This document shows, in pieces, positions 4,840 to 13,672 of a stretch of 37,863 nt of DNA. Location of the stretch: assembly GCA_003246755.1 (NCBI GenBank), contig QKDC01000175.1:1-37863 (forward strand). The letters run 5' to 3'. Position 1 is the first letter of the stretch. Each line of letters starts with the position of its first letter. The notes under the pieces were generated by a model, which made no database searches, was not told the origin of the DNA, and saw only the letters and a program-made list of their open reading frames with translations. This stretch comes from Gemmatimonadota bacterium. GTDB taxonomy: Bacteria > Gemmatimonadota > Gemmatimonadetes > Gemmatimonadales > GWC2-71-9. The position numbers were made by a program, and so were the translations under genes.

Positions 4840-4896
4840 GTCGTCGCCCTGAACCTCGCGGTCAGGTGCCGCGAGTTGCTGGGTAGCCGAAGCGAG

Positions 4897-4933
4897 AATA
4901 AATAATAATGTGGTATTCCACAAAATATTTATT
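4897..4933. promoter_or_regulatory. 37-bp AT-rich concentric dyad, probable operator of the HTH gene
   Basis: Outer arms AATAAATA (4897-4904) and TATTTATT (4926-4933) are exact reverse complements. Inside them TGTGG (4909-4913) and CCACA (4918-4922) are also exact, with a TATT centre. The two dyads share a centre to within half a base. The block is strikingly AT-rich against its surroundings and sits directly upstream of the regulator at 4945, overlapping its likely promoter. Autoregulation is inferred. A terminator for galE is less likely because the GC stem is only five bases and no T run follows. Confidence 0.6.
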
Positions 4934-4938
4934 ACTTT
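4933..4938 (+). promoter_or_regulatory. Candidate -10 box of the HTH gene (leaderless)
   Basis: TACTTT lies six bases before the ATG at 4945 and touches the right arm of the dyad. No Shine-Dalgarno sequence is seen before the ATG, so transcript and reading frame may start together. The dyad centre would fall in the -35/spacer region, where a repressor could block RNA polymerase. Confidence 0.4.
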
Positions 4939-4944
4939 CGTTCC

Positions 4945-5622
4945 ATGCCTCCGAATCGCCCATCGGCGGGCCGCCCGAAGGGACGACTCCCACCCGCTCG
5001 CAAGCTCATCACGCGTCGCGTTCGTTCACTGGTCAACGAGGCACATCTCGGCAACCTGAGTGAGGCCGCGCGCCACACCGGTTTGCCCTACGGCACGGTA
5101 CGCGACCTCTTCCTCGGCCGAACCACCACGCCAGGTCTCGACACCCTGGTGGTCCTGGCACGAGCGTACGATCTCACCCCCAACTGGTTCATCGATCAAA
5201 CCTCGAACGAGCGCCCGGGGATGGCACTCGAAACCTCGTTGCCACCGGATCCCGAGTACCGTCGAGGAAGCGAAGGACGCCGCTTCACCATTCCACTCGC
5301 GGCCTGGCCACTCGCCCGACTCATCCTCCTCTTCGAAGACTATCTGCCGACGCTTCCCGCTTCTCCCGATCGCCCGTTGATTGGTGCGCAGAACGACCGC
5401 GCACGCATCCGGCAGACCCTCGTGGTCTTCTTGTTGAGACCGCTCATGGATGGGCAGCGATTTGGGTACACACGGGTGCTGGGGGCCGACCCACCGTTTC
5501 GTGGAACGGAGCGAGCCGACGAGGCTCAACGAGCCGCGTGGGTTGCGACTCTGCGGGCGCTCGGGAGTTTCTGGGAGCGTGCCTTGAGCGACTTGATTGG
5601 CGCTGCCGAAGCGGTCAGGTGA
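4945..5622 (+). CDS. Helix-turn-helix (XRE-like) transcriptional regulator with unknown C-terminal domain
   Basis: This is a 225-residue protein. Residues about 22-88 resemble a Cro/C1-type HTH: LSEAARHTGLPYGTVRDLFLGR supplies the two helices, followed by the TPGLDTLVVLARAYDLTPNWFI segment common in XRE proteins. The first 20 residues are rich in Pro, Arg and Lys and may contact DNA backbone. The C-terminal 130 residues (helical, with FTIPLAAWPLARLILLFEDYL and a basic middle) match no domain I recognise and probably bind a ligand or form dimers. It follows a 37-bp dyad that is a likely autoregulatory site. It ends six bases from the convergent CopD stop, so it could regulate the copper block, but nothing in the sequence proves this. 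The ATG start is fixed by the promoter context. Confidence 0.75.
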   Translation: MPPNRPSAGRPKGRLPPARKLITRRVRSLVNEAHLGNLSEAARHTGLPYGTVRDLFLGRTTTPGLDTLVVLARAYDLTPNWFIDQTSNERPGMALETSLPPDPEYRRGSEGRRFTIPLAAWPLARLILLFEDYLPTLPASPDRPLIGAQNDRARIRQTLVVFLLRPLMDGQRFGYTRVLGADPPFRGTERADEAQRAAWVATLRALGSFWERALSDLIGAAEAVR

Positions 5623-5628
5623 AGGGGG

Positions 5629-6507
5629 CTATTCCTCGCCCGGCATCGGTTGTGAAACCAGGATGGCAGTCACCAAGAGCACCACCACGGCAAACCCCAA
5701 CTCGAGCATGCTCGACTTGGCGATGCGATTCGCGCCCTCGGGACGGCCGAGTGTTGGCTTGACCACCTTCCAGTTGTGCCGGCCGAGGGCGGCGACACCG
5801 CCCAACACGAGGAGCTTGAGTGTGAGGGTCCTGCCGTACCTGCTCCCCCACAGGGCGGTGACCGACCAGTCGAGATAGCGCAGAGCGAGGATGCTTCCGG
5901 CGACAACGACGATTGTGGCGCCTCCCAGAGCGATCGGATGGAAGGCGTTCACGAGCCGGCTCACCGTCGTGCCCCTGTGCTCGGGGTCGAGGCCACTCAA
6001 GGCGGGCAAACCGACCACGACCAGCGTGGCCAAGGTGCCCAGCCAGACACCGGCACCGAGGACGTGGAGGACATCGAGTGGGTAGCCCCACGCCCCTGCC
6101 TGCTCGGCGCCAGTGGCGTGCCCGGTGAGAGGTGCCGCCAGGGCCACCGCGCTGGCCCCCGCGACGGCGAGCACCCACCCCACCGCCGGGCGGAGCAACA
6201 CGACCCCGAAGCCCAGGGTGGCGAGGAGACCTCCGACGATCTGGGCGGTCCACCCTTCCCCCCAACTCGTGCTGCGAACGATCGTGCTCAGCAACTCCCA
6301 GGTGACCGGCTCCCCGGGATCGACGAAAGACCCAGCCTGTGCCACGACCTTGGCGAGGAGTCCCGCCACCAAGCTCGCGGATGCCAGGAGCCCGAGCCAG
6401 GCCGTCCGGCGGTCCGATGCGTTGGCGACCTCGGGGGCGGCGTGGTGGAAGACACGTTGCAGACCGACCCTGAAGCCGCAGGCCCCCAACACGAGAAGGG
6501 TCGCCAT
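5629..6507 (-). CDS. copD: Copper resistance/transport membrane protein, CopD family
   Basis: This is a polytopic inner-membrane protein of 292 residues from the first canonical start, with about eight hydrophobic segments. CopD-family proteins move copper across the cytoplasmic membrane, usually with a periplasmic CopC partner. Family marks are the LDVLHVLGAGVWLGTLATLVV segment with its conserved His and Trp, VNAFHPIALGGATIVVVAG with a second His, and GSRYGRTLTLKLLVLGGVAALG near the C-terminus. The first ATG (6507) falls inside the first membrane helix. In-frame codons upstream encode IEVLGIVSRWVAF, which completes that helix, and an AGGGGAG Shine-Dalgarno-like sequence lies eight bases before an ATC codon at 6546. 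The true product may therefore be about 305 residues. It lies 58 bases downstream of copC from the canonical start (19 from the ATC) and is probably cotranscribed. Confidence 0.87.
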   Translation of the reverse strand: MATLLVLGACGFRVGLQRVFHHAAPEVANASDRRTAWLGLLASASLVAGLLAKVVAQAGSFVDPGEPVTWELLSTIVRSTSWGEGWTAQIVGGLLATLGFGVVLLRPAVGWVLAVAGASAVALAAPLTGHATGAEQAGAWGYPLDVLHVLGAGVWLGTLATLVVVGLPALSGLDPEHRGTTVSRLVNAFHPIALGGATIVVVAGSILALRYLDWSVTALWGSRYGRTLTLKLLVLGGVAALGRHNWKVVKPTLGRPEGANRIAKSSMLELGFAVVVLLVTAILVSQPMPGEE

Positions 6508-6565
6508 GAAGGCGACCCACCGCGAGACTATGCCGAGGACCTCGATGGCTCCCGCTCCCCTCGGT

Positions 6566-6970
6566 CTAGGGCTTCAAAGTGAAGGAGTACTTCCCACGGA
6601 TCACGTGGCCGTCTTTCCCTGACGTCTTCCATTCCACCGTGAATGTTCCGGGGCTCACGGATCCCGTGACTGGTGCAGACACCGACTTGGGGTCCTCGGC
6701 TTTCCGAAGTTTGCCCAATGCCACCTTCGCATCGTCGGCACCCTTCAACGTGATGCTGGAGAGCACCAGTTCGGGTTCCTCGGCAAACCAGAGCTGAATC
6801 GTCTTAGGCGCCTGGGTGATGACCTCGTCCTTTTCTGGCAGGCTCTTGGTGAGTCGATTGTGGAAGATCCATCCCGATGTCGTCAGGACCAGAACCAGAA
6901 GCACCAAGATGTTTCTGAGCCTGTGCGAGCCGAAAGCCTTCACCGTCGTGTTCCTCACCTTCACTGTCAT
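6566..6970 (-). CDS. copC: CopC-domain copper-binding protein
   Basis: This is a 134-residue exported or membrane-anchored protein of the CopC family, which binds Cu(II) in the periplasm and hands it to CopD. A hydrophobic segment (residues 20-33) precedes H37, which corresponds to the N-terminal histidine of mature CopC proteins. The C-terminal DGHVIRGKYSFTL motif supplies D120 and H122 of the usual Cu(II) site, and LTKSLPEKDEVI and LWFAEEPEL match the beta-sandwich core. The methionine-rich Cu(I) loop of plasmid CopC is absent. The frame continues upstream to 7102 without homology; I chose ATG 6970 because GGGAGG precedes it and the signal segment begins shortly after. It lies between the SCO1-like gene and copD in one probable operon. 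Confidence 0.88.
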   Translation of the reverse strand: MTVKVRNTTVKAFGSHRLRNILVLLVLVLTTSGWIFHNRLTKSLPEKDEVITQAPKTIQLWFAEEPELVLSSITLKGADDAKVALGKLRKAEDPKSVSAPVTGSVSPGTFTVEWKTSGKDGHVIRGKYSFTLKP

Positions 6971-7022
6971 GTCCCTCCCGTTGCGAGTGCGACCTGCCGG
7001 TCGGCGCTGCCGTAATGTAATC

Positions 7023-7670
7023 CTACTCTGGCCAGCCGTTGACCAGGATCGGGATGTCATTGGCCCAGTCCGGCTGTCGGATTCCGAAGGGATAGATGAC
7101 ATGCGCGAGGTTGTCGGTGGTATAGGCGATGACCTGGGCGGCGTGAGAGACAGTATAGGCAGATGGGTCGGACACCTCAGCGGAGTCTCTCATCGCCGGG
7201 AGCACACCTGCGGCGCGCTGGGCTCGGACGATCTCCTCCAGTGAACCGGTGAGACCAATGAATTCTGGATGAAACCCACCCAGCCATTCCCGGAGTCTCT
7301 CGATCGTGTCGCGCTCAGGATCGGTCGTGACGAACACGACCTTGACCTTGGACGTCACCTCCGATGGTAGTCCCTTCAGCACCTTACTGATGTTCGACAT
7401 GTGCACTGGGCAGACATCGGGGCAGTGCGTGTAGCCGAAGAAGAGCAGCGTCAGAAAGCCCTCTGTGTCCGCCCGCAGGTCGAAAGACGTCCCATCCAGA
7501 GCGGTGAGCGTGAAGTCGGGTTTTGGTGCGGGCACGCCGACCAGCACGCCATGGATTTGCCCTGTCGCCGCCGTTACAGCAGGCGTGGGGTGCTCCGCGA
7601 CAGGTGTCTCGTCGACATGATCCTGCTGGGTACAGCCTATGAGCAGCAACAACGGCAGAAACTTCTTCAT
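7023..7670 (-). CDS. SCO1/SenC-family copper chaperone lipoprotein
   Basis: This is a 215-residue thioredoxin-fold protein that delivers copper to the CuA centre of cytochrome c oxidase or acts as a periplasmic thiol reductant. A type II signal peptide with lipobox LLIGC makes C13 the lipid-modified residue, so the protein should be membrane-tethered. The copper-binding CPDVC is at C83-C87, and the conserved histidine is H176 in YTVSHAAQVIAY. The block TTDPERDTIERLREWL is typical. The frame extends upstream to 7724, but ATG 7670 starts a clean lipoprotein signal. No strong Shine-Dalgarno is visible. It is the first gene of the minus-strand copper block and is divergent from the alkaline phosphatase. 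No copper-responsive operator was recognised. Confidence 0.92.
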   Translation of the reverse strand: MKKFLPLLLLIGCTQQDHVDETPVAEHPTPAVTAATGQIHGVLVGVPAPKPDFTLTALDGTSFDLRADTEGFLTLLFFGYTHCPDVCPVHMSNISKVLKGLPSEVTSKVKVVFVTTDPERDTIERLREWLGGFHPEFIGLTGSLEEIVRAQRAAGVLPAMRDSAEVSDPSAYTVSHAAQVIAYTTDNLAHVIYPFGIRQPDWANDIPILVNGWPE

Positions 7671-7735
7671 GAGAATCGTTCTTTCGTCTGAGCGGCAGGA
7701 AAGTGGTTCTCCCGTCGCGGGCAATCAAGCCCTGT

Positions 7736-13507: not shown

Positions 13508-13589
13508 GCCCTGGTGGTGAAATTGGTAGACACGCTATCTTGAGGGGGTAGTGCCGAAAGGCGTCCCGGTTCGAATCCGGGCCAGGGCA
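13508..13589 (+). tRNA. tRNA-Leu (anticodon GAG)
   Basis: This is a class II tRNA of 82 bases. Acceptor arms GCCCTGG and CCAGGGC pair fully, and the D arm is GTG/CAC. The anticodon stem CTATC/GGTAG holds a seven-base loop with GAG at 13542-13544. A long variable arm (TGCC GAAA GGCG) is present, and the T arm is CCCGG-TTCGAAT-CCGGG. The discriminator is A and the CCA end is not encoded. Confidence 0.95.
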
Positions 13590-13600
13590 TCCGGCTTTTC

Positions 13601-13672
13601 GCCACTGTAGCTCAGGGGTAGAGCTCTCGATTCGTAATCGAGTGGTCGTCGGTTCGAATCCGACCAGTGGCT
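13601..13672 (+). tRNA. tRNA-Thr (anticodon CGT)
   Basis: This is a 72-base class I tRNA. Acceptor GCCACTG pairs with CAGTGGC, the D stem is GCTC/GAGC, and the anticodon stem CTCGA/TCGAG holds loop TTCGTAA with anticodon CGT (reads ACG, Thr). The T arm is GTCGG-TTCGAAT-CCGAC. CCA is not encoded. It follows tRNA-Leu by 11 bases under the same promoter and ends seven bases before the convergent stop at 13680. Confidence 0.95.

Follow-up and report, generated by a model that had tools for sequence, protein, structure and literature searches.

Small repressors of the XRE type, among them SinR and the phage repressors 434 and P22 c2, act on dyad operators near promoters, and autoregulation is frequent among them. 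EspR, a more distant comparison, is a nucleoid-associated protein with many binding sites. The locus described here lies in a stretch of 37,863 nucleotides from a Gemmatimonadota genome (contig QKDC01000175.1; the whole stretch is referred to as the window) and comprises an XRE-type gene preceded by two AT-rich inverted repeats.

The HTH gene and its product

The gene extends from 4945 to 5622 on the plus strand and encodes 225 residues; upstream of its ATG at 4945 there is no in-frame ATG, GTG or TTG. Its product was classed as an XRE-type HTH regulator from the open reading frame, profile searches and the predicted structure. The HTH covers approximately residues 21-83, with the likely recognition helix at 49-57. 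HTH_3 was matched by eight of the 13 family members (best E 6e-6); at 21.8 bits the window protein falls just under the cut-off of 23. The AlphaFold model was fairly confident (pLDDT 84, with a block of 88-96 over residues 21-90) and placed a HTH before a C-terminal region of two strands and four helices. The HTH of the model gave TM scores, by target length, of 0.7-0.85 to the domains of SinR and P22 c2, and its predicted fold is the Cro/C1 fold of XRE regulators.

The best profile and fold match to the N-terminal HTH was DdrO, the XRE repressor of Deinococcus (PDB 6jq1, 6rnz and 6rmq). This likeness ends at the HTH: the C-terminal region of the window protein does not superpose on that of DdrO (TM by query length 0.25-0.27), and a DdrO-type C-terminal dimerisation domain was rejected, the alignments being good over the HTH only and the longer ones having an rmsd near 15 Å. 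SinR, 434 and P22 c2 share the HTH fold but consist of the HTH only or carry other C-terminal domains, and their operators differ in sequence from the window's; in contrast to the phage repressors, the gene showed no phage context in the flanks that were read. EspR (PDB 3qf3 and 3r1f) gave a weak profile match over the HTH plus linker (E about 0.003), with no match at the C-terminus.

All fold and profile matches were thus confined to the HTH (DdrO, SinR, P22 c2 and 434). The C-terminal half returned nothing with E below 0.001 in fold searches of PDB and BFVD, the NCBIfam search of the protein gave no meaningful match, and the conserved C-terminal stretches (IP.AAWP, DRP..G, LTTF..QPLL and LG..W) match no described family. 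The initial annotation had proposed a 225-residue HTH protein with an unassigned C-terminal domain directly downstream of the dyad, and these results bear it out on both counts.

Twelve full-length orthologues (36-42% identity) were found in 102 genomes of the window's taxonomic family. Outside that family, a 394-genome sample of the class held no full-length relative, viral contigs held no relatives, and a peptide-pattern scan of the genome collection gave no full-length relative and a single short partial match, in an Allomuricauda MAG. In the tree, six proteins of genus g38 (L007 and L011-L015) were separated with full support from the window protein and six others (L004, L005, L006, L008, L009 and L010). 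The L005 gene has an in-frame TGA at 2134-2136, near the C-terminus, with an open frame beyond it; this is probably merely an earlier stop. The family was not found described in a literature search, and by sequence the window protein appears to belong to a narrow, lineage-restricted XRE family lacking prior description.

The nested dyad

The 48 nucleotides before the start codon (4897-4944) read AATAAATAATAATGTGGTATTCCACAAAATATTTATTACTTTCGTTCC, with the ATG following at 4945. The outer dyad is formed by AATAAATA at 4897-4904 and TATTTATT at 4926-4933, and the inner dyad, TGTGG-TATT-CCACA at 4909-4922, by the arms TGTGG (4909-4913) and CCACA (4918-4922). All arms are exact, neither dyad was assigned to a strand, and the centres (4915.0 and 4915.5) coincide to half a base, as expected from the earlier description of two nested inverted repeats on one centre. 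The AT-rich island of that description is equally real: nowhere in the window is the AT content higher than in the dyad region, where it reaches 82.5% per 40 bp against a window mean of 36% AT (64% GC).

In dinucleotide-preserving shuffles, perfect nests (inner arms of 5 or more within outer arms of 8 or more, all exact) arose at a frequency of 0.0001 for the 65 bp upstream of the gene and of 0.00035 for the 48-bp island, so that exact nesting of both dyads is unusual, though judged by a post hoc criterion that was picked once the dyad had been seen. By itself the inner arm of 5 was common, being present in 46-59% of the shuffled sequences, and when the 60 bp upstream of the gene were scored for their best dyad of any kind, the result was not significant (P=0.07). 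A search of the 3.15-Mb genome for further copies of TGTGG-N4-CCACA found none beyond the dyad's own; the reversed control pattern had two copies.

The scan of the window's upstream region for a consensus promoter found none. A weak σ70-like candidate, TTGCTG-19-AATAAT (4876-4906, plus strand, score 5.6), would place the start inside the dyad, leaving a leader some 30 nt long; the leaderless promoter proposed at first is not supported in the window, where no promoter was convincing.

Upstream regions of the orthologues

Neither AATAAATA/TATTTATT nor TGTGG-N4-CCACA was kept in the upstream region of any of the 12 orthologues. A different element, CATGAAAT, was common to five of the 12 (L004, L005, L006, L008 and L010), that is, to five of the six in the window's branch; these represent three genera, with three of the five carriers belonging to a single genus. 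It ends 6-30 bp ahead of the start codon, usually just past a σ70-like -10. In none of 5000 shuffle sets did any 8-mer occur in five upstream regions, the maximum being three. In L005, L006, L008 and L010 the element aligns right after a TAnnAT-like sequence, the remaining upstream DNA being barely alignable. No CATGAAAT was found upstream of the first ATG of L009, also of the window's branch.

The best promoter candidates of the CATGAAAT orthologues scored 6.5-12.3, compared with 5.6 in the window. The σ70-like pairs TTGAAG-17-TATCAT (L006), TTGCTC-17-TACTAT (L008) and TTGCCA-17-TATTAT (L010) are so placed that CATGAAAT would lie near +1, a position suited to repression. In L004 the element lies between TTGACG and TATTCT; since TATTCT sits 6 nt before the ATG, this gene might be leaderless, and a leaderless promoter may thus occur in the HTH family.

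The positional counterpart of the orthologues' CCATGAAAT element in the window is CCACAAAAT (4918-4926, plus strand), which includes the inner right arm. The two agree in 7 of 9 letters, a level reached in 24% of shuffles (P=0.24) and alone not significant. From position and sequence we infer that CCACAAAAT is homologous to the CATGAAAT element. The dyad as written thus failed the comparison with orthologues, and what survives at the same place is a probably homologous element.

Some orthologues have dyads of their own, varying in arm length, spacing and sequence: TTCATGGC...GCCATGAA in L004 (P 0.03), TGGCATG...CATGCCA in L005 (P 0.045) and a different one again in L009 (P 0.09); L006, L008 and L010 had no upstream dyad above chance. 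TTCATGG...CCATGAA occurs elsewhere at most once per genome, and the L004 copy is the only one at the gene of this HTH family.

In the three genomes with the CCATGAAATNNWW form before the HTH gene (G075, G099 and G101), all other copies of CCATGAAATNNWW lie within long open frames, and a wider regulon defined by it was rejected. The L005 site is itself inside an open frame that continues the divergent topoisomerase gene upstream, probably beyond that gene's true start. DdrO acts on several DNA-repair genes; for the window protein, by comparison, a second site in non-coding DNA was not established. The sole other possible non-coding copy among the scanned genomes was CCATGAAATCAAA in L049 (G051:C1:1655348-1655360, minus strand), outside long open frames.

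CATGAAAT was absent from all six g38 upstream regions. In its place, four of the six g38 genes (L007, L011, L012 and L015) have a promoter-like CTGGCG-17-TAnnTT 25-27 bp before the start, often inside CTCTGGCGG. The recognition helix reads Y[PG]TxRDL[YF] in the window protein and the CATGAAAT orthologues and Y..LR[ED][IL]H in the six g38 proteins, an agreement between helix and element that is confounded with descent in the tree.

The dyad as an operator, and the alternatives

The reading that we consider probable is that the XRE-type gene has its operator and core promoter region in the AT-rich dyad at 4897-4933 and would be negatively autoregulated. A dimer of the HTH protein would bind the inner dyad, its half-site CCACAAAAT having diverged from the CCATGAAAT of the family, and, bound over or beside the transcription start, would repress its own gene. 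The outer arms would most simply be AT-rich promoter or flanking DNA that aids melting and bending, or might form a weaker second dimer site. Both binding at the dyad and repression by the HTH protein are what we infer from sequence. Autoregulation, part of the initial annotation, is indirectly supported because five of the 12 orthologues share CATGAAAT shortly before the start codon and because the other CCATGAAATNNWW copies in three genomes lie in long open frames; the dyads themselves, being unconserved, count against it. The best reading would be a fast-evolving operator near the transcription start, as for other XRE repressors, and the layout is most likely a common autoregulatory arrangement, ordinary in kind.

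The island could instead be merely a core promoter, AT-rich -10 or UP-type DNA in a GC-rich genome, its symmetry having arisen by chance in sequence of low complexity. The general dyad score, the frequency of inner arms of 5 in about half of the shuffles, the conservation of the arms in no orthologue and the AT-rich DNA at the same place in several orthologues all agree with this. We nevertheless regard it as rather doubtful: the exact concentric nest was rare in shuffles, and CATGAAAT adjoining the -10 in related genes hints that a protein has its site within the interval.

That the dyad is an RNA hairpin or intrinsic terminator, ending the galE transcript or affecting translation of the HTH gene, is quite unlikely. 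The strand does fold (-11.3 kcal/mol, z -3.5), a terminator-like pattern is present on both strands, and the end of galE, a gene of the same strand, lies about 70 nt upstream; but the stem is short with only three G-C pairs, the tail is AAATATTTAT and not a U-run, and the hairpin has no Rfam match. An intrinsic terminator, with a G+C-rich stem and a U-run, was rejected on these features. Nor do the orthologues keep the hairpin, L004 included, which likewise has galE upstream; among the orthologue flanks compared, this arrangement is common to the window and L004 only. Elsewhere in the window, Rfam placed two adjacent tRNA genes at 13508-13672 on the plus strand.

An operator for another regulator, or one serving the copper-protein genes directly downstream of the HTH gene (copD, copC and a SCO1-like gene, 5629-7724, minus strand), is very improbable, since the inner dyad is single-copy in the genome and the copper genes are convergent with the HTH gene, their promoter therefore lying beyond 7.7 kb. 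A link to these genes had been suggested for the regulator as well; no CopC, CopD or SCO1 match was found in the flanks (about 1.5-5 kb) of any of the 12 orthologues, and a copper-responsive regulator with conserved linkage was rejected.

A four-cysteine protein beside related genes

At seven of the 12 orthologue loci, in all six g38 genomes and L004, the HTH gene is divergent to a gene for a small protein of 75-101 residues with four invariant cysteines (CxxC...C...C). These genes lie on the plus strand in L007 (2258-2506), L013 (2279-2536) and L015 (2292-2540) and on the minus strand in L004 (1063-1365), L011 (1035-1289), L012 (1098-1322) and L014 (1043-1288). A Pfam scan of two members gave no match, and the protein was not found in the window's genome. 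Beyond the HTH loci it was convincing in only one genome (G057) among the 102, at L067, where no HTH gene was seen nearby and the adjoining ORF resembles a dimethylargininase by eye.

Tentatively, the proteins may form an XRE subfamily confined to this lineage, its C-terminal domain undescribed and its regulation existing in two states. One branch would have a self-operator of the CATGAAAT type; in the sister branch the gene is paired divergently with that of the four-cysteine protein, which the regulator would possibly sense or control. L004, having both, would bridge the two.

Significance

The layout is an ordinary autoregulatory one in an uncharacterised regulator family, and its direct importance is modest. 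In sister genomes, the Cys-rich protein encoded divergently may hint at what the signal is. The regulator-operator pair seems to drift fast between genera, and could help in studying how recognition helices and operators change jointly.
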